Assembly: GCF_014235185.1 (NCBI RefSeq)
Contig: NZ_CP060131.1
Location: forward strand, 4,781,501-4,845,500
Direction of reading: 5' to 3'
Length of the DNA: 64,000 nt
Origin: Pseudonocardia petroleophila
Lineage (GTDB): Bacteria; Actinomycetota; Actinomycetes; Mycobacteriales; Pseudonocardiaceae
The notes beneath the pieces were generated by a model. That model made no database searches and had not been told where the DNA came from. It saw only the letters and a program-made list of their open reading frames with translations. Made by a program: the position numbers and the translations under genes. Shown here in pieces: positions 6,286 to 43,278 of the stretch (within the stretch, counting starts at the first letter, position 1; each line of letters starts with the position of its first letter).

Positions 6286-7095
6286 CTAGCTGCGCGGCCG
6301 CACGGTCAGGCCCTGGGTCGTGCGGCCCACGTGCCCGTCGGTGTCGAAGAGCAGGCCGGTGGCGGTGCCGAGCCCGGTCGGGCCGATCACGCTGCTCGCC
6401 CGCACCCCGACCCACTCGCCGGCGGGGACGCGGTGCAGGTGCACCGTCAGCTCGGTGTTGACGTAGAGCCAGTGGCGGATGTCCAGCGGCGACCCGATGC
6501 CGTTGGCGCTGTCGCCGACCACGGCCAGGCGCTGCAGCGGGGTGATCTCCTCGCCCTCGACCAGCGCCACCCGGGGGCGGCCCCACAGCTCGCCCGGACC
6601 GGGGACGTCCCATCCGCCGGACACCCACCGCCACTCGACGGCGTCGATGTAGCCGGGCAGCCAGCCCTCGGCCCGGTCGGGGTGGACCTGGACGCCGTCG
6701 GGCGGGGGCAGGGCGGGCTCGGTGCCCGACACGACCTCGGCGGTGTCGCCCTCGGCCAGGCGCCACGCGCGGGCCCGCAGCACGGCGCGGCCCCCGGCCA
6801 GCATCTCCGCCCCGAGCAGCTCGATGCTGCGGCCCGGCCGCTCCATCCGGGCACGGACCTCGACCTCGCCCGCCGGGATCCGCCCCAGCACCTCGACGGT
6901 GACCCGGGACAGCGCGGTGCCGGGCCGGGGCGCGCACCGCTCGAACGCCCGGATCAGCAGCGCGGCGGGCGGGCCGCCGTGCTGGGCGTCGGCGAACCAC
7001 GGCCCGGTGGTGGAGAAGGTGGCGTGGAAGCGCTCGCCGTCGGGGCCGTCGAGCGGGCGGTAGAAGGGTTCGAGATCCGGCACGTCCGCGATCAT
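6286..7095 (-). CDS. Thioesterase family protein (acyl-CoA thioesterase-like, double hotdog)
   Basis: A 269-residue protein with two hotdog-like halves. The N-terminal half has FHATFSTTGPWFADAQHGGPPAALL and VEVLGRIPAGEVEVRARM; the C-terminal half has ALVEGEEITPLQRLAVVGDSANG and the ending GRTTQGLTVR. This matches the actinobacterial thioesterase-like family that hydrolyses acyl-CoA. It starts six bases after the RecB-type gene on the same strand, so the two probably form an operon. The physiological acyl substrate is unknown. Confidence 0.85.
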   Translation of the reverse strand: MIADVPDLEPFYRPLDGPDGERFHATFSTTGPWFADAQHGGPPAALLIRAFERCAPRPGTALSRVTVEVLGRIPAGEVEVRARMERPGRSIELLGAEMLAGGRAVLRARAWRLAEGDTAEVVSGTEPALPPPDGVQVHPDRAEGWLPGYIDAVEWRWVSGGWDVPGPGELWGRPRVALVEGEEITPLQRLAVVGDSANGIGSPLDIRHWLYVNTELTVHLHRVPAGEWVGVRASSVIGPTGLGTATGLLFDTDGHVGRTTQGLTVRPRS

Positions 7096-7101
7096 GCCCG
7101 C

Positions 7102-9410
<2,309 letters not shown>

Positions 9411-17574: not shown

Positions 17575-17623
17575 GATCATGCAGGAGGCCGCATGTGATC
17601 CCGGTCTCATCATGCAACATGAT
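17575..17623. promoter_or_regulatory. Palindromes between the alcohol dehydrogenase and dop
   Basis: A perfect palindrome ATCATG-CAA-CATGAT (17609-17623) and a related imperfect one, GATCATGC (17575-17582) with GCATGTGATC (17591-17600). The second has a two-base insertion. Both share the CATG core, as expected for two copies of one operator upstream of the dehydrogenase. The regulator is unknown. Confidence 0.5.
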
Positions 17624-17673
17624 CGACGGGCGCACGCCGGGGACCTCCGGGGCGCGGCGGTTAGGCTCGACGC

Positions 17674-17700
17674 ATGAGTGCGCTGAAGGCCCGCCCGTGA
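17674..17700 (+). CDS. Leaderless 8-codon ORF overlapping the dop start
   Basis: ATG to TGA encoding [14 protein letters not shown] (17662-17667) ends six bases before the ATG, so an mRNA beginning at this ATG is predicted. Its TGA overlaps the dop GTG as GTGA, which would couple dop translation to the short ORF. Alternatively the ATG is merely the 5' end of the dop transcript. Translation is not proven. Confidence 0.45.
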
Positions 17701-19202
17701 CGGCCCGTCGGATCATGGGCACCGAGATCGAGTACGGCATCTCGGTCCCGGGCGACCCCACCGCCAACCCGGTGATCACGTCCACGCAGGTGGTGCTGGC
17801 CTACGCCGCGGCCGCCGACATCCCGCGCTCGCGGCGCGCCCGCTGGGACTACGAGGTGGAGTCGCCGCTGCGCGACGCCCGGGGCTTCGACCTCTCCGCG
17901 CCCACCATGCACAACCCCGTCGACTCCGAGCTCGACGACCTCGGCGCGGCGAACGTCATCCTCACCAACGGCGCGCGGCTCTACGTCGACCACGCCCACC
18001 CCGAGTTCTCCACCCCCGAGGTCACCACCCCGCGCGACATCGTGGTGTGGGACAAGGCGGGGGAGCGGGTGATGGAGGAGGCCGCGATGCGCTCGGCCAC
18101 CGTGCCCGGGGCGCCGCGGATCCAGCTCTACAAGAACAACGTCGACGGCAAGGGCGCGAGCTACGGCGCCCACGAGAACTACCTGATGGCCCGCTCCACC
18201 ACGTTCCCGTCGATCGTCTCGGGGCTGACGCCGTTCTTCGTGACGCGCCAGGTCGTCTGCGGCGCGGGCCGGGTCGGCCGGGGAGCGGCCGGCGACGAGG
18301 CCGGCTACCAGCTCGCGCAGCGCAGCGACTACATCGAGGTCGAGGTCGGCCTGGAGACCACGCTCAAGCGCGGCATCATCAACACCCGCGACGAGCCGCA
18401 CGCCGACGCCGACAAGTACCGCAGGCTGCACGTCATCATCGGCGACGCCAACATGAGCGAGTACTCCACCCTCCTGAAGGTGGGGACGGCCGCGATCGTC
18501 CTGGACATGATCGAGAAGGGCGTGCGGTTCGACGAGCTGCGCCTCGCCGAGCCCGTCCGCTCGGTGCACCGGATCAGCCACGACCCGACGCTGAAGACGA
18601 CGGTCGACCTGGCGGACGGCAGGCGGATGACGGGCCTGGACATCCAGCAGGCCTACTTCGAGAAGGCGCGCGCGCACGTCGGCGACAGCCCGGACGAGGC
18701 CACCGCGGAGGTCATGCAGATCTGGGGCGAGGTCCTCGACGACCTCGCGCGCGACCCGATGAGCACCGCCGACCGCCTCGACTGGACCGCGAAGCTGCGG
18801 CTGCTGGAGGGCTACCGCGAGCGCGACGGGCTCACCTGGGACGCCCCCCGCCTGCACCTGGTCGACCTGCAGTACACCGACGTCCGGATGGCGAAGGGGC
18901 TCTACAACCGGCTCGCCACGCGCGGCTCGATCAAGCGGTTGGTCTCCGAGGACGACGTCACCGCCGCGATGACCGCGCCGCCGGAGGACACCCGCGCCTA
19001 CTTCCGCGGCCGCTGCCTGGAGCGCTACCCGGCCGAGGTCGCGGCGGCGTCGTGGGACTCGGTGATCTTCGACCTGGGCCGCGAGTCGCTGGTCCGCATC
19101 CCGACGCTGGAGCCGCTGCGCGGCACCCGTTCGCACGTCGGGGAACTGATCGACAACTCGCGCACCGCGGAGGAGCTCGTGGAGGCGCTCACCCGCGGCT
19201 GA
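17697..19202 (+). CDS. dop: Depupylase / deamidase of Pup
   Basis: A 501-residue carboxylate-amine-ligase-fold enzyme that removes Pup from substrates, and in species with Gln-ended Pup also deamidates it. Conserved blocks are [19 protein letters not shown] (catalytic metal Glu), [16 protein letters not shown], the Dop-loop region after it, [37 protein letters not shown] and [19 protein letters not shown]. Overall it is close to M. tuberculosis Dop (505 residues, from memory). GTG at 17697 is the likely start; ATG at 17715 is an alternative. pup, prcB and prcA follow. Because this Pup already ends in Glu, Dop here is probably only a depupylase. Confidence 0.96.
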
Positions 19203-19244
19203 GCGGCATCGTCGCGCGCCGGATCACGGACTTTCGTCGGCGTA

Positions 19245-19265
19245 CTGGGTTAGTGTTCAACCCAG
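19245..19265 (+). promoter_or_regulatory. Hairpin and possible promoter upstream of pup
   Basis: CTGGGTT-AGTGTTC-AACCCAG is a perfect seven-base-pair hairpin 24 bases before the pup ATG. It contains TAGTGT (19251-19256), a possible -10 for pup independent of dop. It may be an operator, an mRNA structure, or chance. Confidence 0.35.
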
Positions 19266-19289
19266 CACGACCTATCGACAGGAGGCGTC

Positions 19290-19487
19290 ATGTCGCAGGA
19301 GCAGACGAAGCGTCAGGGTGGCGGCGGCGGGGACGACGACGAGGGTGCCGACGCCGCGGCGGCCGGCCAGGAGCGTCGCGAGAAGCTCGGCGAGGACGTC
19401 GACACGATCCTCGACGAGATCGACGACGTCCTCGAGGAGAACGCGGAGGACTTCGTCCGCGCCTACGTCCAGAAGGGCGGCGAGTAG
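19290..19487 (+). CDS. pup: Prokaryotic ubiquitin-like protein Pup, Glu-terminated
   Basis: A 65-residue intrinsically disordered modifier joined through its C-terminal Glu to substrate lysines by PafA. The C-terminal part LDEIDDVLEENAEDFVRAYVQ becomes helical on Mpa. The end is QKGGE, so the ligatable glutamate is encoded directly; M. tuberculosis Pup ends GGQ and needs Dop deamidation. A Gly-rich stretch (residues 10-14) and acidic runs follow MSQEQTKRQ. AGGAGG is four to six bases before the ATG. It lies between dop and prcB. Confidence 0.97.
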   Translation: MSQEQTKRQGGGGGDDDEGADAAAAGQERREKLGEDVDTILDEIDDVLEENAEDFVRAYVQKGGE

Positions 19488-19559
19488 CCTCCCCGGCTGC
19501 CCCCCTCCTCCCTCACCCGCACGAGCAGTACCCGCACGACGAGAGGCGCAGACCTGACC

Positions 19560-20411
19560 ATGTCGTTCCCCGATCCGGGGCGTCGCGCCCCTGTCGGCCT
19601 GGACGCGTACCTCGCGCCCGGCCCGTCGTCCTTCACCGACTTCGTCACCGCCCACGCGCCGCACCTGCTCCCCTCCGCGGTGCCGGCCGGGCCCGCCGGC
19701 GGCGCGCTGGAGGTCCCGCACGGCACCACGATCGTCGCGCTGGTGTTCTCCGGCGGCGTGGTCATCGCCGGCGACCGGCGCGCGACCCAGGGCAACGTCA
19801 TCGCCCAGCGCGACATCGAGAAGGTGTTCGTCACCGACTCGCACTCCGCCGTCGGCATCGCCGGGTCGGCGGGCATCGCTCTGGAGATGGTGCGGCTGTT
19901 CACCGTCGAGCTCGAGCACTACGAGAAGATCGAGGGCACCACGCTGTCCCTCGACGGCAAGGCCAACAAGCTCGCCGCGATGGTCCGCGCCAACCTCGGT
20001 GCCGCGATGCAGGGGTTCGTGGTCGTGCCGCTGTTCGCCGGCTACGACACCGAGGCGCCCGACCCGTCGAAGGCCGGCCGGATCGTCACCTACGACGCCA
20101 CCGGCGGCCGCTACGACGAGCTGCTCGGCTACCACGCCGTCGGCTCCGGGTCGGTGTTCGCGAAGTCGGCGCTGAAGAAGCGCCACCGCGTCGACGCCGA
20201 CCTGCCCACCACGGTCCGCACCGCGATCGAGGCGCTCTACGACGCCGCCGACGACGACTCCGCCACCGGCGGGCCGGACCTCACCCGCAAGCTCTACCCG
20301 ATCGTCGTGTCGATCACCGGCCCCGAGGGCGCGATCCGCCGCCCGGAGACCGAGATCGCCGAGGTCGTCGCCCAGGTCGTGGCCGGCCGCACCGAGAACC
20401 CCGGAGGCTGA
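19560..20411 (+). CDS. prcB: 20S proteasome beta subunit
   Basis: Catalytic subunit of the 20S core. Of 283 residues, 1-55 form a propeptide (ending EVPHG) that is removed to expose Thr56 as the N-terminal nucleophile in GTTIVALVF. The conserved [12 protein letters not shown] supplies the Asp/Arg region with Lys counterpart in RDIEKVFV, and GIAGSAGIA and [12 protein letters not shown] complete the active site. It is followed by prcA after four bases and co-expressed with pup. Length and propeptide are standard for actinobacteria. Confidence 0.97.
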
Positions 20412-20415
20412 TCCC

Positions 20416-21213
20416 ATGACGATGCCGTTCTACTCGTCGGTCGACCAGCTCCTGCGCGACCGCTCGGAGCTCGCCCGCAAGGGCATCGCCCGGGGCCGCA
20501 GCGTCGTGGTCCTCACCTTCACCGACGGCGTGCTGTTCGTCGCGGAGAACCGGTCCACCGCCCTGCACAAGGTGTCCGAGATCTACGACCGCATCGGGTT
20601 CGCCGCGGTCGGGCGCTACAACGAGTTCGAGACGCTGCGCAACGCCGGCGTCCGGATGGCCGACGTCCGCGGCTACACCTACGACCGCCGCGACGTCACC
20701 GGGCGGATGCTGGCCAACACCTACGCGCAGGTGCTCGGCACCTCCTTCGTCGAGCAGCAGAAGCCCTACGAGGTGGAGCTGTGCCTGGCCGAGGTCGGGG
20801 CCACCGTCGACGCCGACCAGCTCTACCGCATCACCTACGACGGCTCCATCACCGACGAGCCGCAGTTCGTGGTCATGGGCGGCACCACCGAGCCGATCAG
20901 CGCGAAGCTCAAGGACACCTACCGGGCCGGGCTGGGCCTGGCGGAGTCGATCGCGCTCGCCGTCGAGGCGCTGCAGACCAGCTCCACCCCCGGCAACGGC
21001 GGCACCGCCCAGCCCGCCGTGCTCGGCGTGCGCGCGCTGGAGGTGGCGGTGCTCGACCGCGGCCGCCCGCGCCGGTCGTTCCGCCGGATCACCGGCTCGG
21101 CGCTGCGCGAGCTGCTCCCCGAGGCCAACCGCACTGTCGACGCCCCGGCCGGGTCCGAGGACGTGGGCGGCGACGAGAGCCCGGTGGTCCCGGAGAACGG
21201 CACCGGCTCCTGA
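20416..21213 (+). CDS. prcA: 20S proteasome alpha subunit
   Basis: A 265-residue structural ring subunit; its N-terminus [23 protein letters not shown] gates the entry pore and its surface binds the Mpa C-terminal GQYL. Alpha-type features are [22 protein letters not shown] and the lack of a Thr nucleophile after a propeptide. The C-terminal tail (about 235-265, acidic with GGDESP) is likely flexible. It starts four bases after prcB and is followed by a terminator hairpin, ending the pup-prcBA operon. Confidence 0.97.
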
Positions 21214-25269: not shown

Positions 25270-25275
25270 GTGGGG

Positions 25276-26637
25276 ATGCAGCGGCGGATCTACGGTGTGG
25301 AGACCGAGTTCGGGGTCACCTGCACCTTCCACGGCCAGCGGCGTCTCTCCCCGGACGAGGTGGCGCGGTACCTGTTCCGCCGCGTCGTCTCCTGGGGGCG
25401 CTCGTCGAACGTCTTCCTGCGCAACGGCGCGCGGCTCTACCTCGATGTCGGGTCCCACCCGGAGTACGCCACGGCCGAGTGCGACTCGCTCGCGCAGCTG
25501 GTCAGCCACGACAAGGCGGGGGAGCGGATCCTGGAGGACCTGCTCGTCGACGCCGAGCGCCGGCTGGTCGACGAGGGCATCGGCGGCGACATCTACCTGT
25601 TCAAGAACAACACCGACTCCGCGGGCAACTCCTACGGCTGCCACGAGAACTACCTCGTCGCCCGGGCCGGGGAGTTCTCCCGGATCGCCGACGTCCTGCT
25701 GCCGTTCCTCGTCACCCGCCAGCTGATCTGCGGGGCGGGCAAGGTGCTGCAGACCCCGCGCGGGGCCGTGTACTGCCTCTCGCAGCGGGCCGAGCACATC
25801 TGGGAGGGCGTCTCCAGCGCCACCACCCGGTCCCGGCCGATCATCAACACCCGCGACGAGCCGCACGCCGACGCCGAGCGCTACCGCCGCCTGCACGTCA
25901 TCGTCGGCGACTCGAACATGTCCGAGACCACCACCATGCTCAAGGTCGGTGCGGCCACGCTGGTGCTGGAGATGATCGAGGCGGGCGTCCAGTTCCGGGA
26001 CTTCACCCTCGACAACCCGATCCGCGCCATCCGCGAGATCAGCCACGACCTCACCGGCCGGCGCACCGTGCGGCTGGCGGGCGGCCGGGAGGCCAGCGCG
26101 CTGGACATCCAGCGCGAGTACCACGCCCGCGCCGTCGAGCACCTCGCCACGCGCGGCAGCGAGGACCCCACCATGGCCCGCGTCGTCGAGCTGTGGGGCC
26201 GCACCCTGGACGCGGTGGAGAGCCAGAACCTGTCGCTGATCGACCGGGAGATCGACTGGGCGATCAAGCACCGGCTCGTCGAGCGGTACCGCCAGCGCAA
26301 CGACCTCGACATGGCCAGCGCGCGGGTCGCCCAGCTCGACCTCGCCTACCACGACATCCGGCGGGGCCGGGGGCTGTTCGACCTGCTGCAGCGCAAGGGG
26401 ATGGTCGAGCGGGTCACCGACGACGGCGAGATCGAGGCGGCCAAGGACACCCCGCCGCAGACGACCCGGGCGAAGCTCCGCGGCGACTTCATCGCCGCCG
26501 CCCAGGCCGCGGGCCGGGACTTCACCGTCGACTGGGTGCACCTCAAGCTCAACGACCAGGCCCAGCGCACCGTGCTGTGCAAGGACCCGTTCCGCTCGGT
26601 CGACGAGCGGGTCGACCGGCTGATCGCCTCGCTGTAG
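25276..26637 (+). CDS. pafA: Pup-protein ligase
   Basis: Activates the Pup C-terminal glutamate as gamma-glutamyl phosphate and joins it to substrate lysines. The 453-residue enzyme is nearly identical in layout to M. tuberculosis PafA (452, from memory). [16 protein letters not shown] has metal-binding Glu9; [20 protein letters not shown] has catalytic Asp57. [18 protein letters not shown] and [16 protein letters not shown] follow, with the C-terminal Pup-binding end [20 protein letters not shown]. It is paralogous to Dop. It stands 4 kb from prcA, separated by the block 21.3-25.2 kb, and is predicted to have its own promoter. Confidence 0.97.
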
Positions 26638-35683: not shown

Positions 35684-36040
35684 ATGTCCGAGTGCACCGA
35701 CCCCACCGCCCACGCCGACCCCACCACCGAGTACGTCGACCGGGACGGCGACGGCTACACCGAGACCACGCTGCTCGACACCGACGGCGACGGCGCGTTC
35801 GACACCGTGCTCGTCGACGTCGACGCGGACGGCCTCACCGACGTGGGCGCGGTCGACATCGACGCCGACGGCCGCATCGACCTGGTCGCCGTCGACATCG
35901 ACCACGACGGCTACGCCGACGTCGCGTTCCTCGACACCGACCAGGACGGTCTCCCCGACGAGGTGCTCGGTGCCGCGGACGGGCCGTTCCCGTCCCCGAC
36001 CGACGACGACACCTACCCGCGCACGGCCGCGGCGTCCTGA
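35684..36040 (+). CDS. Acidic protein with six DxDxDG calcium-loop repeats
   Basis: A 118-residue protein. After MSECTDPTAHADPTTEYV come six perfect 13-residue units (residues 19-96), each DxDxDGxxD plus four mostly hydrophobic residues: DRDGDGYTETTLL, DTDGDGAFDTVLV, DVDADGLTDVGAV and so on. The DxDxDGxxD core is the metal loop of EF-hand and thrombospondin-type calcium sites. No signal peptide is visible, so it would be cytoplasmic unless exported by an unknown route. GAGGAG lies seven bases before the ATG. I do not recognise a named family. It is convergent with an ECF sigma gene. Confidence 0.8.
   Translation: MSECTDPTAHADPTTEYVDRDGDGYTETTLLDTDGDGAFDTVLVDVDADGLTDVGAVDIDADGRIDLVAVDIDHDGYADVAFLDTDQDGLPDEVLGAADGPFPSPTDDDTYPRTAAAS
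35738..35971 (+). repeat. Six 39-base tandem repeats coding DxDxDG loops
   Basis: Six in-frame copies of a 39-base unit without spacers or gaps. The first base triplet GAC of every unit and the GACGGC core are invariant or nearly so; other positions diverge. Confidence 0.85.
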
Positions 36041-36077: not shown

Positions 36078-36638
36078 TCAGCGCCCCAGCTGCGCCTTGA
36101 GCGAGGTGCGGGCCCGGTGGATCCACACCTTCACGCTGTTGAGGGGCGCGTCCATCAGCTCGGCCACCTGCGCGTAGGGCATGCCGCCGACCCACAGCAG
36201 CAGCGCCTCCCGGTGCTTCTCCGGCAGCGTCTCCAGCGCGGCCTGCACCGACATGGTCTCGACCAGCACGTCGGCGAACAGGCTGGCGGAGGCATCGCGG
36301 GGGCGGTCCTCGATGTCGTCCACGTTGGTCTCGGGGCGCCTGCCCCGGGCCCGGATCACGCTCAGCGCGGCGTTGCGGGCGATCGTGAACACCCAGGCCC
36401 CGAACGGGCAGCGGTGCTCGAAGCGGTGCAGGTTGCGCCAGACCGCGATCTGGCACTCCTGCAGGGCGTCGGCGGCGTCGGTGCGGTTGCCGGTCAGCCG
36501 CAGGCACAGCGCGTGCGCCTGCCGCTCCGAGGCCTTCCAGAGGGTCTTGAACGCCTCCTGGTCGCCCGCCTGGGCGGCGGCGACCAGGGCGCCCTCGTCA
36601 CCGGACTCGTCCGGTTCGGGGAAGGGGCCGGTGGCCAT
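36078..36638 (-). CDS. ECF-type RNA polymerase sigma factor
   Basis: A 186-residue sigma-70 family protein. Region 2 is QEAFKTLWKASERQAHALCL to DALQECQIAVWRNLHRFEHR with the -10 recognition helix near FGAWVFTIARNAALSVIRA. Region 4 is LPEKHREALLLWVGGMPYAQ with VAELMDAPLNSVKVWIHRAR. AGGAGG lies three bases before the ATG at 36638. No anti-sigma gene adjoins it. It is divergent from the Asp-rich protein and dynamin-like operon, which it may control; I cannot identify its promoter motif. Confidence 0.93.
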   Translation of the reverse strand: MATGPFPEPDESGDEGALVAAAQAGDQEAFKTLWKASERQAHALCLRLTGNRTDAADALQECQIAVWRNLHRFEHRCPFGAWVFTIARNAALSVIRARGRRPETNVDDIEDRPRDASASLFADVLVETMSVQAALETLPEKHREALLLWVGGMPYAQVAELMDAPLNSVKVWIHRARTSLKAQLGR

Positions 36639-36757
36639 GGTCCTCCTGCGGCTCGGGGGCGCTCGGATCATGGTTCGCGGCGCGACCGTGGATCGTTAGC
36701 CATCATGGCCCCAACGGTTCGACCCGGATAGATCCGACTCAGAGAACGGAGAGTGCG

Positions 36758-37180
36758 ATGACCGACGACATGTCCCGCGACGCGCTGCACGAGCTGTTGT
36801 TCGACGGCGTCGCGCCGCCCGCCGGGTCCGACGCGATGTTCGCGCAGACCTTCGCGGCCGAGGGTTCCGACGGCGCCGACCTGCTGCCGCCCGACGGGCT
36901 GTTCGACATCCCCGCCGACGACGACCTCGACGGCGACCCGATCCCCGGCGACCCGATCCTCGACGACCCGGCGCTCGGCGGCCTCGCCGACGACCCGGCC
37001 GACCCCGCGTTCGACGCCGACCACACCGACGACCCCGCCCTCGAGGACCCCGCCCTCGACGACCCGGCCCTCGACCACCACGCCGCCCCGGACGCCGACC
37101 ACGACGCCGCGGCCGCCGACCCGGCCCTCGGGGGCACCGACCCCGCCGCGGGCCACCCCGACCCCGGCACCGGCTGGTGA
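36758..37180 (+). CDS. Asp-rich acidic protein preceding the dynamin-like genes
   Basis: A 140-residue protein. The N-terminal 45 residues (MTDDMSRDALHELLFDGVAP then PAGSDAMFAQTFAAEG) look folded. From residue 50 on, the sequence is dominated by Asp, Pro and Ala, with repeated DDPAL and EDPAL units and no membrane helix. GGAGAG lies just upstream of the ATG. Its TGA overlaps the GTG of the first GTPase, so it is the first gene of that operon. In mycobacteria the dynamin-like iniA and iniC follow iniB, a low-complexity protein; this may be a functional analogue, but no homology is visible. Confidence 0.75.
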   Translation: MTDDMSRDALHELLFDGVAPPAGSDAMFAQTFAAEGSDGADLLPPDGLFDIPADDDLDGDPIPGDPILDDPALGGLADDPADPAFDADHTDDPALEDPALDDPALDHHAAPDADHDAAAADPALGGTDPAAGHPDPGTGW

Positions 37181-39075
37181 GCACGGCCGACCCGCTCGCC
37201 GCGCTCCGCGAGCTCTGCCACGGCGGTGCGTCGCGGGCCCGCGACGCGCGGCTGCGCGCGGAGCTGGTGGCGGTCGGGTCGCAGCTGGACCGGCCGCTGC
37301 AGCTCGCGGTGGCCGGGTCGGTCAGTGCCGGGAAGTCGACGCTGATCAACGCGATGCTGCGGCGCTCGGTCGCCCCGGCCGACGCGGGGGAGTGCACGCG
37401 GCTGGTCACCTGGTACGAGCACGGCGAGCGCGACGGCGTCGTCATCGTCGAGTGCGTCGACGGCACCGTGCACCGCCGCGCCCTGCACGACGGACGGCTG
37501 CCCGCCGACCTCGGCGTCGACCCCGCCGGGGTGCTGCGGCTGCGGGTCCAGCTCGCCGACCCGGCGTTGCGCACCGTCACGATCATCGACACGCCCGGCG
37601 TCAACACCGTCTCCGCCGAGAACGAGGACGCCACCCGGCGGCTGCTGTTCGGCGACGCGGCCGCCGAGCACGCCCAGGCCCTGCTCTACGTCCTGCGCTA
37701 CGTCCAGCGCTTCGACGCCGACACCCTCGACGAGTTCCGGGCCCTGTCCGCCGCGTGCGGGATGACCGCGGTGAACACCGCCGCCGTGCTGACCCAGATC
37801 GACCGCCGCGGCGACGGCGAGGAGGACCCGTGGCCCACCGCGCGCCGGCTCGTCGCCAAGGCCTCGGCCGACCTGGGCGGCCGCGTGCTCGACGTCGCGC
37901 CGGTGATCGGGCTGCTCGCCGAGACCGCCCGTGCGGGCCTGCTCGGCGCCGCCGAGGTCGACGCGCTGCGCGAGCTGGCCGCGCTGCCCCCCGACGAGCT
38001 CGACGACCTGCTGCTCGACCTCGACGAGTTCACGACGGAGCCGTACGGGCCCGTCGACCTCGCCACCCGCGCGGTGCTGGTCGCCCGCCTGCACCGCTAC
38101 GGCATCCGCGAGGCCGTGGCCCGGCTGCGCAGGCGTCCGTCGACCGGACCCGCCGAGCTGCACCGCTGGCTGGCCGGCTGCTCCGGCTACGGGGCGGACG
38201 TGTCCGCCGACAGCGGCACCGTCGTCTGGGAGGCCGACACGGGCGGGCCCGACCTGCCCCGCACCCTCGCCGACGTCCTGGACCGGTTCGCCCGCCACGC
38301 CGGGCGGCTCAAGGCGTTCGCCGCGGTCGGCCGGATCCGCGCGCTGACCCGCCGCGAGGTCGACCCCTGCGACGCCGGGCTGGTCGCGGAGCTGCGCGAG
38401 GCCGTCGACGAGAGCCGGCCGGTGGTCGCGGGCCTGCGCGGCCTGCGGATCCTCGCGGCCTGCGCCGCGGTCGGCCGCGGGCAGCTGCGCCTGGACGACG
38501 ACATGACCGCCGAGCTCATGCGCCTGGCCCGCTACGACGACCCCGCCACCGGGCTCGGCCTGCCGCTGACCTGCACCGCCGCCGACGTCGTCGCGGCCGC
38601 GGGGGAGGCGTCGCGGCGGTGGCGGCGGGTGGTCGCCCTGGCCGGCCCGACCGTCGGCGGGCAGCGGGCCCGCGACGTGCTCGGCGCACTGGAGGACATC
38701 GCGGCGGCCGCGCTGTCCGGGGCCCCCGCGCCCGCCCCGGCCCCCGTGCCCGTCGCCGTCCCCGAACCGGATCCCACCCTGGCCCGGATCCACCGCATCG
38801 CGCACCCGGGCTGGACCGGTCTCGACGCCGCCGTGCTCGACCGGCTCGCCCGGTCCCCGGCCCTCGGCGAGCGGGAGCGCGGGGCCGTCGGGCGGCTGCT
38901 GCGGTCGACCGGGCCCGGTGACGCGCTCGGGACCGAGGACCCGGCCGAGCTGGCGGCGCGGTTCCGGGTGCTGCTGCACCGGCCGCTGCCGGTGGTCGAG
39001 CGGCGGGGCGTGCAGGCGGTGTGCGCGGTGTTCGAGGGGCTGACGTTGGGCGCGAGTGCGGGAGGAACGGGATGA
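37177..39075 (+). CDS. Dynamin-like GTPase (first of pair)
   Basis: A 632-residue large GTPase. G1 is LAVAGSVSAGKSTLINAM (Lys53), G3 is IIDTPGVNTVS, and G4 is probably VLTQID. Helical, Arg/Leu/Ala-rich sequence beyond residue 300 would form the dynamin stalk; no clear membrane hairpin is present. A Pro/Ala linker (about 510-530) precedes a C-terminal helical segment. It starts with GTG overlapping the acidic gene and ends overlapping the second GTPase. The family includes IniA/IniC and Streptomyces DynA/DynB, which remodel membranes. As DynA/DynB-type pairs interact, a heteromer with the next product is likely. Confidence 0.87.
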   Translation: MSTADPLAALRELCHGGASRARDARLRAELVAVGSQLDRPLQLAVAGSVSAGKSTLINAMLRRSVAPADAGECTRLVTWYEHGERDGVVIVECVDGTVHRRALHDGRLPADLGVDPAGVLRLRVQLADPALRTVTIIDTPGVNTVSAENEDATRRLLFGDAAAEHAQALLYVLRYVQRFDADTLDEFRALSAACGMTAVNTAAVLTQIDRRGDGEEDPWPTARRLVAKASADLGGRVLDVAPVIGLLAETARAGLLGAAEVDALRELAALPPDELDDLLLDLDEFTTEPYGPVDLATRAVLVARLHRYGIREAVARLRRRPSTGPAELHRWLAGCSGYGADVSADSGTVVWEADTGGPDLPRTLADVLDRFARHAGRLKAFAAVGRIRALTRREVDPCDAGLVAELREAVDESRPVVAGLRGLRILAACAAVGRGQLRLDDDMTAELMRLARYDDPATGLGLPLTCTAADVVAAAGEASRRWRRVVALAGPTVGGQRARDVLGALEDIAAAALSGAPAPAPAPVPVAVPEPDPTLARIHRIAHPGWTGLDAAVLDRLARSPALGERERGAVGRLLRSTGPGDALGTEDPAELAARFRVLLHRPLPVVERRGVQAVCAVFEGLTLGASAGGTG

Positions 39076-40943
39076 GCACGGTCGTCGCAGGGGTGCTGCG
39101 CCTGGCGAACGAGGTGCACGGGCTGGCGAAGGCGGCCGGGCGGGAGGACCTGCGGGCCCCGCTGGCCGAGCAGGCCGCCCGCTGGAAGGACGGCACGACG
39201 ACGGTCGTGCTGGCCGGGGCGCAGAAGCGCGGCAAGAGCCGGCTGCTCAACTGCCTGGTCGGGCACCCCGACCTGCTCCCCGTCGACGCCGACATCGCCA
39301 CCCACACGCAGGTCGCGGTGACCCGCGGGCCCGAGCTGACGGTCACGGTGCTGCGCACCGACGGCAGCCGCACCGTCGTCGACCCGGCGGAGCTGCCCGC
39401 CTACGCCTCGGTGCTGGGCGACCCGGCCGTGCTGCGCGAGGTCACCGGACTGGAGGTGACGATCGACGAGCCGCTGCTCGACGGGCTGCGCCTCGTCGAC
39501 ACCCCCGGCGTCGACAGCCTCACCCTCGGCCACCGGCACGCCACGATGGGCGCCCTCGCCCGCGCCGACGCGCTGCTGTTCGCCGTGAGCGCCCAGGACC
39601 AGCCGATCCTGCGCCACGAGCTGGAGTTCCTCGCCGAGGCCGCCGACCGGATCCTGTCGGTCGCGTTCGTGCTGACCAAGGTCGAGGACTCGACGTCGTG
39701 GCGGGACCTGCTGGCCGAGAACCGGGCGCGCCTGGCCCGGTTCTGCGGCCCGGACGGCCCTGGCGTCGACCCGGAGGTCGCGCGGCGGCTGCTGGAGGCG
39801 CCGTGGCTGCCGGTCAGCGCGAAGCTGGGCGAGGCGGCGCTGACGCTGCAGGCCGCGGGGCACACCGAGCGCGCCGCGGCCCGGCTGGAGCGCAGCGGGC
39901 TGCCCGGGCTGCGGCGGCACGTGGAGCGCTGCGGCGAGCGCCGGGAGCTCGTGCGGGCGGGCGGGGTGCTCGGGCTCGTCGTGTCCGGGATCCGGGCGCT
40001 GTCCGAGCCGGAGGAGGACCGCGCCGCCGGTGACGCCGACGACGAGCTGGCGCAGCGGCAGGCCGTCGTCGACGAGGAGATCGCCGCGCTCACCGCCCTG
40101 AAGCGGGAGCGGCGGCGGCGCAGCATCGACCACCAGCTCATCGGGCGCCGCGTCGTCAACCGGGCCCGGGCCCGCCTGGAGGCCTACCGGCGCACCTACG
40201 AGCGCGAGCTGGTCGAGCTGACCAAGCCCGCCGACGTCAGCCGGTACGCCGCGACGCTGCCGGAGAGCATCGAGCGGACCCTCGGCGCGGCGTGGCAGGA
40301 GATCTCCGCCGACACCGAGCGGACCGTCGCCGAGGCGCTGCCGCGCTACCTCGCCGAGATGGGCGTCGACCCCTCCGAGCTCGACCGCGTCGTCATGGAG
40401 GCGCCGGTCCGCGCGCCCGGTGAGCTGAACGCGGAGGGCCCGGGCGGGAAGTTCGACGTCATCGGGGAGGGGGTGCCCGCGCTGATGATGGCCAGCAGCG
40501 TCGGCTTCCTGTCCTCGCACGCGTTCGTCGGGCTCGCGTTCGGGCTCTCGTTCCTCGCTCCCGTCGCCATCGGCGGCCTGCTGGCCGGCACCCTGCTCGC
40601 CCACCGCCGCCGCCTCGCCGAGGCCACCCGCAACCGCACCGCGCTGACCAAGGCCCTCGGCGACGCGTTCTTGGTGGCGACCAACGAGATGTCGGTCGCC
40701 GTCGAGCAGGCGGTCGCGGCGTGGCGCGGGGGAGCGGAGCAGGCCGTCGACGCCGCGTTCGCCGTCCGTCAGCAGGAGCTCGACGCCCGCCGCCGCGAGC
40801 TGGCCGGTCTCGCCGCCCAGGACGCCGCGGCCCGCAAGCGCGCCGCCGCGGCGGCCCAGAGCCGCCTGGACACCCTCACCGAGGCCGACCGGCGGGCCCG
40901 CGAGCTGTCGGCGGAGCTGGCGAAGGAGCTGGCCGTCAGCTGA
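39072..40943 (+). CDS. Dynamin-like GTPase (second of pair) with membrane hairpin
   Basis: A 623-residue GTPase. G1 is VLAGAQKRGKSRLLN (Lys55), G3 is LVDTPGVDSLT, and G4 is FVLTKVED. Two hydrophobic segments at about 467-510 (MMASSVGFLSSHAFVG and later FLAPVAIGGLLAGTLLA) form a hairpin like the membrane paddle of bacterial dynamins. Long charged coiled-coil segments (about 325-370 and 560-620, ARKRAAAAAQSRLDTLTEA) flank it. GGAGG is six bases before the ATG, which overlaps the first GTPase stop. Its last eight bases overlap the end of the convergent Hsp70-like gene. Confidence 0.88.
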   Translation: MSTVVAGVLRLANEVHGLAKAAGREDLRAPLAEQAARWKDGTTTVVLAGAQKRGKSRLLNCLVGHPDLLPVDADIATHTQVAVTRGPELTVTVLRTDGSRTVVDPAELPAYASVLGDPAVLREVTGLEVTIDEPLLDGLRLVDTPGVDSLTLGHRHATMGALARADALLFAVSAQDQPILRHELEFLAEAADRILSVAFVLTKVEDSTSWRDLLAENRARLARFCGPDGPGVDPEVARRLLEAPWLPVSAKLGEAALTLQAAGHTERAAARLERSGLPGLRRHVERCGERRELVRAGGVLGLVVSGIRALSEPEEDRAAGDADDELAQRQAVVDEEIAALTALKRERRRRSIDHQLIGRRVVNRARARLEAYRRTYERELVELTKPADVSRYAATLPESIERTLGAAWQEISADTERTVAEALPRYLAEMGVDPSELDRVVMEAPVRAPGELNAEGPGGKFDVIGEGVPALMMASSVGFLSSHAFVGLAFGLSFLAPVAIGGLLAGTLLAHRRRLAEATRNRTALTKALGDAFLVATNEMSVAVEQAVAAWRGGAEQAVDAAFAVRQQELDARRRELAGLAAQDAAARKRAAAAAQSRLDTLTEADRRARELSAELAKELAVS

Positions 40944-43278
40944 GCCGGACCAGCCGGCCGGGGTCGGAGCAGGAGTCGCCGGGGGGCGCGGCCGGGACGT
41001 GGCGGGCGAGCAGGACCCCGGACGCCCGGCCGACCGGCTCGAGCCAGCCGCGGGCGGCGGTGAGCACGCGCAGGCCGGTGGGACCGGCCGAGACGAGCTG
41101 GGAGCCGCCCGTGCCGTCGCCCGCGCCGACCAGCAGCGACTCGCCGTCGGCGCGGACCCGCGGTGCCTCGTCGGGGCGGGCGGCCGCGGGGGAGCCGAGC
41201 AGCGCGGGCAACCGGCCGAGCTCGCGCAGCCCGCCGTCGTGCAGGGCGTGCACGGCCAGCGCCCGCCCCGGGGCGAGCCGGTCCACGGCCAGTCCGTAGG
41301 CCTGCCGGCCCGCCACGGCCCACCGGACGTCGCCGCCGGGCGGGCGGGGGAGCACCGGCCGCCGGCCGGTGCCGCGCGGGTCGGCCCGGTGCTCCAGGCC
41401 GGCCGCCCCCGCCACCAGCCAGCGTCCGCCCGAGGCGAGCACCTGGCGCACGCCGGTCTCGTCGGCCACCGGGGTGATCTCCCCGGCCGGTCCGACCAGG
41501 CACAGCGTCTGGCGGCCGGCGCGCCCGAGCACCACGGCCAGCGAGCGGCCGTCGCCGAGCAGGGCGGGCAGGGTGCTGCCGGCGCGGGCGGTGGGGTCGA
41601 GCATCCGACGGGTGCCGTCGACGTAGGAGTAGACGGCGGGCCCGAGCGGCAGCACCGGCCCCGCGGTGCCGGGGCGCAGCGGGACGACCTGCACCGCGAG
41701 CGTGCCGGACTCCTCCAGCGGCCCGGTCATCCGCGTGTCCGGCGACCGCAGCACCACCCACGCGATGCCGCCCGCGGCCACCAGGAACGGCCGGTAGGGC
41801 GTGGGCAGCTTCGTCGAGGTGCCCACGGAGAGGTCGGCCCCGAGCGTGTGGCAGTGCAGGTCGCCCGCGCGGCGCTCGGCCACCACGATGCCGCCCTCGG
41901 CCACGGCCCAGCCGACGAGCCGCCCGAACCGGATCTTGCGGTCGGCCTGCCCGGTGACCGGGTCGATGCGGGCGATCCGGTGCCGCCCGGCCGTGCCGTC
42001 GGGCGCCGACCACACGTACAGGCGCCCGCCGACGACCCGGGCGTCGAGCACCTCCTCGGCCAGCGGGACCAGCTCCTCGCGCCGGGGCAGGTGCCCGATC
42101 CGCGTCGGGGGAGCGGGCGGGAGGCCGGGTGACGTCGTGGCGGCGGGGGGTGCGGTGGGTTCGGGGCCGGGCGCGGCCGGCGGCACGGGGGCGGGCTGGT
42201 CCGCCGGGATCGCGGGTCGCCCGCCCGCGAGGACCGCCGCCCCCAGCGCGACGGCGCCCTTCGGATCGGCCGACGTGCGGACCCGCGCGCCGTACCGCTC
42301 GCGCAGCACCCGCTCCACCAGCGGGGTGCGGGCGGCGCCGCCGGTGAGCAGGACGACGTCGACCTCGGTGCCCGCGACGGTCTCGGCGAGCAGCCGGGCG
42401 CTGCGGCGCACGTCGTCGCCGATCAGGTCGTCGAGCTCGGCGCGGGTGATGTGCACGTCCGCGTCGGCCCCGGCCACGTACTGGCTCGCCGTCTCGAACG
42501 TCGACAGCGCCTCCTTGGCCAGCCGGGCCTCGGTGAGCAGGTCGGCCTCGGCGGCGAGCCGGGCCGGGTCGGTCGTCAGCTCCTCCCACCACTGCGGGGC
42601 CGCGTGCTTGAGCTGCTCCCCGAAGTGCCGGAACACGAGCTGGTCGAACACCTCGCCGCCGAGGTCGGGGTCGCCCCCGGGGCGCCCGACGACGCGGAAC
42701 CCGCCGCCGTCCGGGGCGAGGACGGTCGCGTCGAACGTGACACCGCCCAGGTCGTACACGGCGACGGTGCCCGTGGCCCGGTGCTGCACCGCGGCGGCGA
42801 CGGGCTCGGCGACCAGCTCGACCTCGACGCGCGGCAGGACGCGCGCGGCGACCTCCCGCAGCTCCGCGAGCCGGTCCGCGGACCAGCCGACGGGGTGGGT
42901 GAGGACCAGGCGGGACGGGTCGGCGTCGTCGTGGCGGCGGCGGCCCTCCTGCACGAACAGCCCCAGCAGCGCGGCGAGGGCGTCGACCGCGCTGACCGGC
43001 TTCCCGCCGAGCAGCATCGGTGCCCGCCCGACGTAGCGGCGCGGGTTGCGCTCGGCCCGGTCCGGCAGCCGGCCGACGGCGCGCTGCGCGTAGCTGCCGG
43101 CGACGAGCCGGGCGTCCTCGGTGAGCAGGACGGTGGTCGGGACCCGCGGCTCGCCGCCGACCTCCAGCAGCTCCACCGCGCCGTCGACGGCGATCGCGCC
43201 CGCGGCGAAGCTCGTGCCCAGGTCGACGCCCAGCGCCCAGGCTCCCGCCCCCTCGGCCACCGTCGTCGCGTCCCTCAT
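40936..43278 (-). CDS. Hsp70-type ATPase fused to a beta-propeller-like domain
   Basis: A 780-residue protein. Residues 15-352 are an Hsp70/actin-fold ATPase: phosphate-1 LGVDLGTSFAAGAIA, phosphate-2 YDLGGVTFDATVL (176-183; the usual third Gly is Val), and adenosine motif LLTGGAARTPLVE. A Pro-rich linker (359-392) replaces the substrate-binding domain. Residues about 400-780 show repeated strands such as VVGGRLYVWSAPDG, LVGWAVAEGGIVVAERR and DVRWAVAGRQAYGLAVDR, as in a beta-propeller. It cannot be a classical DnaK. GGAGGG precedes the ATG. It lies 19 bases after the exonuclease gene and converges with the dynamin pair. Confidence 0.88.
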   Translation of the reverse strand: MRDATTVAEGAGAWALGVDLGTSFAAGAIAVDGAVELLEVGGEPRVPTTVLLTEDARLVAGSYAQRAVGRLPDRAERNPRRYVGRAPMLLGGKPVSAVDALAALLGLFVQEGRRRHDDADPSRLVLTHPVGWSADRLAELREVAARVLPRVEVELVAEPVAAAVQHRATGTVAVYDLGGVTFDATVLAPDGGGFRVVGRPGGDPDLGGEVFDQLVFRHFGEQLKHAAPQWWEELTTDPARLAAEADLLTEARLAKEALSTFETASQYVAGADADVHITRAELDDLIGDDVRRSARLLAETVAGTEVDVVLLTGGAARTPLVERVLRERYGARVRTSADPKGAVALGAAVLAGGRPAIPADQPAPVPPAAPGPEPTAPPAATTSPGLPPAPPTRIGHLPRREELVPLAEEVLDARVVGGRLYVWSAPDGTAGRHRIARIDPVTGQADRKIRFGRLVGWAVAEGGIVVAERRAGDLHCHTLGADLSVGTSTKLPTPYRPFLVAAGGIAWVVLRSPDTRMTGPLEESGTLAVQVVPLRPGTAGPVLPLGPAVYSYVDGTRRMLDPTARAGSTLPALLGDGRSLAVVLGRAGRQTLCLVGPAGEITPVADETGVRQVLASGGRWLVAGAAGLEHRADPRGTGRRPVLPRPPGGDVRWAVAGRQAYGLAVDRLAPGRALAVHALHDGGLRELGRLPALLGSPAAARPDEAPRVRADGESLLVGAGDGTGGSQLVSAGPTGLRVLTAARGWLEPVGRASGVLLARHVPAAPPGDSCSDPGRLVRLS

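Follow-up and report, generated by a model that had tools for sequence, protein, structure and literature searches.

This analysis concerns a gene cassette of Pseudonocardia petroleophila in which two dynamin-like GTPases are grouped with an Hsp70-like protein and an extracytoplasmic function (ECF) sigma factor. It lies in a stretch of 64,000 nt (the window; NCBI RefSeq assembly GCF_014235185.1, contig NZ_CP060131.1, positions 4,781,501 to 4,845,500), which is part of the complete chromosome of 6.49 Mb. Positions without a locus number refer to the window. An operon on the forward strand is headed by the gene for an acidic leader protein (36758–37180; 140 amino acids, 26% Asp plus Glu), followed by the genes for GTPase 1 (GT1, 37177–39075), which belongs to an IniC-like branch, and GTPase 2 (GT2, 39072–40943), which belongs to an IniA-like branch. 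Neighbouring genes of the operon overlap by 4 bases each, and GT2 converges, with an overlap of 8 bases, on the Hsp70-like gene on the reverse strand (43278–40936). At the other end the ECF sigma gene (36638–36078, reverse strand) is divergent from the operon; its open frame begins at 36671, and the start at 36638 is inferred from relatives. The ECF gene is convergent with a gene for a D-x-D-G repeat protein (35684–36040, forward strand; 118 amino acids, 28% Asp plus Glu). An initial annotation had named five of these genes, and all five were found, with Pfam matches for the ECF factor, both GTPases and the Hsp70-like protein, so that the observation of the gene grouping is confirmed. The list was incomplete in that the D-x-D-G repeat gene, and a GrpE gene present in relatives, had been overlooked.

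Both GTPases clearly exceed the Pfam cut-off of 27 bits for Dynamin_N (GT1 51.4 bits, GT2 52.9 bits), and the P-loop and the DTPG motif, by which bacterial dynamin-like proteins are recognised, are present in the GTPase domain. For both, the best match to a solved structure was IniA (6j72; 1.9e-11 for GT1 and 1.3e-19 for GT2). The G4 motif deviates from the canonical [NT]KxD: GT1 has TQID, with Gln and Asp invariant across the 19 rows of alignment A4, and GT2 has TKVED, as do the other rows of alignment A3 except locus L081 (TKTD). A segment of GT2 at about residues 477–495 is hydrophobic, also in the relatives (A3), and may insert into the membrane; the scan that found it detected no such segment in GT1. 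Bacterial dynamins mostly occur as pairs (PMC6104087). IniA carries out membrane fission, and IniC, which was not amenable to study in that work, is a suspected helper of IniA (PMC6715688).

To see how far the grouping is conserved, named genomes were scanned with GT2 alone. This yielded 30 loci, three of them from Pseudonocardia and the others from genera of the Streptosporangiaceae and Micromonosporaceae; for some loci the family was listed, and for others it is the one we presume from the genus. GT1 was matched at all 30 loci (partially in L065, which starts within GT1), and so was an Hsp70 that lacks the peptide-binding domain and carries its own C-terminal domain (alignment A2). This Hsp70 gene is convergent behind GT2 in 29 of the 30 loci, and a divergent ECF gene is present in 27; it was not found in L065, where the contig end cuts the locus, nor in L075 and L081. 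As judged by eye from the frames of the loci listed, the flanking genes vary among families, while the layout of the cassette is nearly constant across three actinobacterial families. Two details of individual loci may be recorded here. Variable extra frames or space of up to about 2.5 kb lie between GT2 and Hsp70 in L055 (9879–10382, reverse strand), L068, L069, L074, L076 and L079. In Phytohabitans flavus (L062, 6165–7942) the GT1 match switches frame near 6575, by a sequencing error or a genuine frameshift.

The Hsp70 tail and GT2 also occur together. The comparison covered 100 genomes from a single family (the family of G170, probably Streptosporangiaceae). In each of them the 12 to 19 top candidates of a first look were scored, with cut-offs of E ≤ 1e-6 for the Hsp70 tail and E ≤ 1e-40 for GT2; both were present in the identical 11 genomes, belonging to 8 genera, and neither in the other 89. 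By counting alone the odds of such agreement are 7e-15, a value to be read with the relatedness of the genomes in mind. In all 11 the two genes are neighbours in convergent orientation, and the match ends lie 10 to 2467 bases apart (read by eye). The tail is rare in the class (3 of 197 genomes, nine candidates scored per genome), and within the genus GT2 at an identity of at least 80% was detected in 4 of 13 genomes, counting its own.

Dynamin pairs outside this set led to the same picture. An Hsp70 gene stands beside ten of the ten further pairs read, three in this genome (L017–L019) and seven elsewhere (L086–L092); these pairs were chosen from GT2 matches and are therefore not a random sample. 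The idea that the genes are chance neighbours was rejected on the conservation in the 30 loci, found in three families, the co-occurrence in 11 of 100 genomes and the Hsp70 genes beside the further pairs. The linkage proposed in the initial annotation is thus strongly favoured: homologues of the Hsp70-like gene, rather than being usually remote from dynamin genes, adjoin them.

Together with the window, these loci fall into three classes. The ini-type consists of an IniB-like protein followed by an IniA-like and an IniC-like dynamin (L017–L019, L090–L092), the GrpE-type comprises L086–L089 (GrpE was found in three of them, not in L089), and the window represents the ECF-type. Hsp70 is divergent in this genome's ini-type loci, whereas it is convergent in the ECF-type. 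Each class forms one clade in trees of Hsp70, GT1 and GT2, which were built from 23 loci with L090 left out; 14 of the 23 are ECF-type. The pairwise distances of the three proteins correlate at 0.95, 0.96 and 0.99, values reached in none of 2000 permutations; the three genes have co-evolved. Labelling the window cassette as ini-type was rejected, as it forms a separate clade and its leader protein showed no match at E 1e-3 to an N-terminal profile built from 6 IniB-like proteins; the ini-type stays its nearest relative. Nor does an Hsp70 of this kind always occur with a dynamin: L020 of this genome (G000:C1:2899000-2916000) carries an Hsp70 gene (7323–9200, reverse strand) whose product clusters with Hsp70 of the ini-type locus L017, and no dynamin match was detected within the 17 kb read. 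It is perhaps an orphaned partner. Conversely, this genome contains three more, weaker Dynamin_N places without a nearby Hsp70 match. Beside the ini-type dynamins of L090 (3969–6377, reverse strand) and L091 (4483–6534, reverse strand) the nucleotide-binding motifs of the Hsp70-like proteins are strongly decayed, which is a separate case of decay.

The Hsp70-like protein of the window consists of a nucleotide-binding domain (residues 1–352; 42223–43278) and a C-terminal domain (residues 396–780; 40936–42093) in place of the peptide-binding domain. The Pfam HSP70 match (99 bits) ends at position 373 of 599 of the profile and thus leaves the peptide-binding domain unmatched; neither this domain nor the lid was matched by the profile, in line with the initial annotation. 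The nucleotide-binding domain is of the Hsp70 kind, with profile A1 matching PDB Hsp70 chains at 6.3e-42. The C-terminal domain had been called a beta-propeller, and this was not confirmed: it has no relative in Pfam or in the PDB (best E 0.58), and no significant internal repeat was detected. Blade-like segments can be drawn with borders set by eye, and in profile comparisons they outscore pairs of blade and control (p 0.03) but not pairs of controls (p 0.68).

Two catalytic motifs are changed in Pseudonocardia. Compared with the genome's own DnaK, the position of Lys70 is Arg in all five Pseudonocardia Hsp70 proteins, and the GGG loop is altered in all five as well (GGVTFD in four, GAGSVD in L054). 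In contrast, all 23 Hsp70 rows from ECF-type loci outside Pseudonocardia keep both the catalytic Lys and the GGG loop. The ratio of non-synonymous to synonymous substitutions (dN/dS) is 0.21–0.39 for the Pseudonocardia Hsp70 and 0.14–0.36 for its nucleotide-binding domain (three comparisons). Because these values are low, the protein is retained and not dead; purifying selection persists despite the loss of catalytic motifs.

The ECF-type loci outside Pseudonocardia contain a further gene. A GrpE domain is encoded at 26 of 27 of them, the exception being L065, which is cut by the contig end, and all three ECF-type GrpE proteins tested exceed the Pfam cut-off. At the five distinct Pseudonocardia loci (window, L053, L054, L055, L083) GrpE was not found. 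Two hydrophobic segments were detected in four of six ECF-type GrpE proteins scanned (none in L056 and L080) and in GrpE of L087, which is of the GrpE-type. Across whole genomes that bear the cassette, GrpE matches number one in G007, one in G009, two in G005 and two in G000, one of the latter below the cut-off. A further arrangement was seen in L021 (G000:C1:4511000-4527000), where the longest frame of an Hsp70-family gene (7042–9192, forward strand) overlaps an opposite-strand frame (7059–7481) that matches GrpE weakly (35 bits by our own profile, and under the Pfam cut-off); no dynamin match was found in this stretch. The initial annotation had suggested altered ATP turnover from the Val in DLGGVTFD. 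This loop is present, and the suggestion is strengthened by the exchange of Lys for Arg, which had been overlooked, and by the lack of GrpE at the locus; it holds for Pseudonocardia alone, the catalytic motifs being retained in the other 23 proteins.

The ECF protein has both regions 2 and 4 (Sigma70_r2 1.1e-14, Sigma70_r4_2 4e-14 in Pfam) and scores 82 bits for TIGR02937 (sigma70-ECF, cut-off 42.9). In the gap between the ECF gene and the operon lies a block at 36691–36702, GATCGTTAGCCA in the window, which is a possible promoter element. Of five aligned Pseudonocardia sequences, the window, L053 and L083 share it unchanged, and L054 and L055 each show a single difference. Other families have a different conserved block in this gap, and exact block patterns occur once each in 14 of the 30 loci, within the gap or at its edge. 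Upstream of the Hsp70 gene no comparable block was observed. A single ECF promoter for all units is unsupported, as the conserved block was seen solely in the region between ECF gene and operon. ECF control, put forward in the initial annotation, is suggested by the divergent ECF gene in 27 of 30 loci and by the conserved gap block as a candidate promoter. The operon is probably controlled by the ECF factor.

Two small acidic proteins accompany the cassette. The D-x-D-G repeat gene is a conserved extra member: exactly one open reading frame with at least three motifs is present in 30 of 32 sources (the window, L083 and the 30 loci), upstream of GT1 in 29 of them and, in L065, on the far side of the Hsp70 gene, and no frame of this kind was found in L053 and L067. 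Matches of its product to EF-hand and FG-GAP in Pfam are weak and below the cut-off, and the protein is possibly Ca2+-binding. The acidic leader has a short conserved N-terminal region and a fast-evolving acidic tail (dN/dS 0.77 and 0.93), without a match to Pfam or other family profiles. Of 28 loci read by eye, 24 have its N-terminal motif in recognisable form ahead of GT1, and L071, L075, L078 and L081 do not. Elsewhere in the window, at 17595–21213 and 25270–26637, the frames read by eye resemble a proteasome and pupylation cluster (Dop, Pup, PrcB, PrcA, PafA).

The constancy of the layout in three actinobacterial families suggests a membrane-remodelling machine run by a chaperone. Upon membrane or envelope stress, the ECF factor would turn on the divergent operon for the acidic protein, GT1 and GT2. 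The IniC-like GT1 and the IniA-like GT2 could then assemble into a heterotypic scaffold at the inner membrane face that carries out fission, fusion or sealing. The Hsp70-like protein may grip either the dynamins or the acidic protein with its C-terminal domain in place of a peptide-binding domain, and assembly or disassembly of the scaffold would be gated by its ATP state, comparable to Hsc70 on clathrin coats. A dedicated GrpE would reset the Hsp70 in Streptosporangiaceae and Micromonosporaceae, where it often has membrane-anchor segments. As Pseudonocardia has lost both its local GrpE and the catalytic residues, the Hsp70 of this lineage is probably a slow or non-hydrolysing, ATP-bound clamp. 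That the window encodes an ini-like dynamin machine of the ECF-type coupled to a dedicated, Hsp70-gated assembly is the reading we tentatively prefer, at a little under an even chance. More doubtful is its extension to a general actinobacterial machine, in which an Hsp70 switch with its tail and a membrane-anchored GrpE for reset would assemble and strip heterotypic dynamin coats, Pseudonocardia having a hydrolysis-poor clamp under ECF control. The interpretation given in the initial annotation is partly supported as a whole.

Several observations weigh against this reading. Since the Hsp70 gene lies on the opposite strand, it need not be under ECF control; in L081 it lies upstream, and no ECF gene was found in L075 and L081. 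The congruence of the trees is partly due to common descent of linked genes, and the trees themselves carry warnings (long branches meeting for GT1; long rows for DnaK and L091 in the Hsp70 tree and for L088 and L089 in the GT2 tree). The altered G4 motifs put nucleotide use by GT1 and GT2 in question. For the clamp, the precedent is K71A in human HspA1A, which is described as ATPase-null (PMC7503672), and this is an exchange for Ala, not Arg. The ini-type loci L017, L018, L019 and L092 have no local GrpE, yet their Hsp70 retains the motifs and may be served by the housekeeping GrpE; a universal rule by which ATPase decay accompanies the lack of GrpE was rejected on these four.

Other explanations account for parts of the data. 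The cassette could be an ordinary iniBAC-like envelope-stress operon whose Hsp70 neighbour is retained for regulation only and has no role with the dynamins. The structure matches of the dynamins are ini-like, the ini-type loci of this genome share the same partners, and the Hsp70 gene is its own transcription unit, all of which would fit. The pairing, however, persists though the orientation differs between the classes, the co-occurrence of Hsp70 tail and GT2 in 11 of 100 genomes is perfect, and relatives carry a dedicated GrpE. We consider this explanation unlikely. Somewhat less likely still is a developmental or division module of mycelial actinobacteria, acting in septation or sporulation like Streptomyces DynA/DynB with Hsp70 for timing. 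Streptomyces has heterotypic pairs of this kind (PMC6104087), but the neighbouring ECF gene points to stress more than to development, and just 11 of 100 genomes of one family have the cassette. The genera that carry it are mycelial and sporulating, as this explanation would expect.

To an anti-phage or conflict system we assign the same low probability as to the developmental module. Here the dynamins would seal or break membranes at infection and Hsp70 would trigger them, in the manner of LeoABC or of the combination of GTPase, Hsp70 and GrpE of Kaur et al. 2020. PADLOC gave LeoA for GT1 (1.2e-12) and LeoBC for GT2 (2.9e-7), matches that may reflect the shared dynamin fold only. The spread is patchy, as the counts for genus and class given above illustrate, DynA of B. 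subtilis is protective against phage (PMC8844932), and in actinobacteria GAP1-N2 systems join a GTPase with Hsp70 and GrpE (PMC7159879). On the other hand, neither an effector domain nor a GAP1 family is among the Pfam matches of the nine proteins of the window that were scanned, the dynamins have no PHROG match, and the frames flanking the Pseudonocardia loci resemble housekeeping genes by eye. A phage origin of the cassette was also considered and rejected, since neither dynamin matched PHROG and the window has no tRNA and no Rfam match.

Regulation of bacterial dynamins and the joint role of the ini dynamins are unsettled questions, and an Hsp70, often with GrpE, beside dynamin pairs in several actinobacterial families provides a testable partner that ties chaperone nucleotide cycling to bacterial membrane remodelling. 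The Pseudonocardia lineage, with Arg in place of Lys and no local GrpE, offers a built-in comparison.

Among known systems, iniBAC is similar in its adjacent IniA-like and IniC-like dynamins and in the small protein that heads the operon, and an Hsp70 gene adjoins all six ini-type loci read. The window cassette differs in the reversed order of the dynamins, in its ECF factor as opposed to the LuxR-type regulator seen by eye at several ini-type loci, and in a convergent Hsp70 with a new C-terminal domain, besides its separate clade in the three trees. Cj-DLP1/2 of Campylobacter likewise form a side-by-side dynamin pair in an operon, which differs by including a beta-lactamase-like gene; in that paper Hsp70 appears in the reference list only (PMC6104087). 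Among the literature matches listed, with closed journals and preprints outside the scope, no title or abstract joined bacterial dynamins with Hsp70 or GrpE, and we regard the cassette as a variant among the ini-like dynamin loci, whose link to Hsp70 and GrpE was not seen described among these matches. The nearest published genomic analogy is the second theme of the GAP1-N2 systems, in which an actinobacterial GTPase is combined with Hsp70 and GrpE and some Hsp70 proteins also lack the peptide-binding domain; the word dynamin is absent from the main text (PMC7159879), and the Pfam matches of nine window proteins include no GAP1, FNIII or DnaJ. With DnaK and Hsc70 the Hsp70-like protein shares the nucleotide-binding domain and, in the relatives of the cassette, the GrpE partner; it differs in lacking the peptide-binding domain and, in Pseudonocardia, in the Arg at the Lys70 position and the altered GGG loop. 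The nearest mechanistic analogy is the uncoating of clathrin by Hsc70 (PMC4436892), of which a general Hsp70-gated dynamin machine would be the bacterial counterpart.

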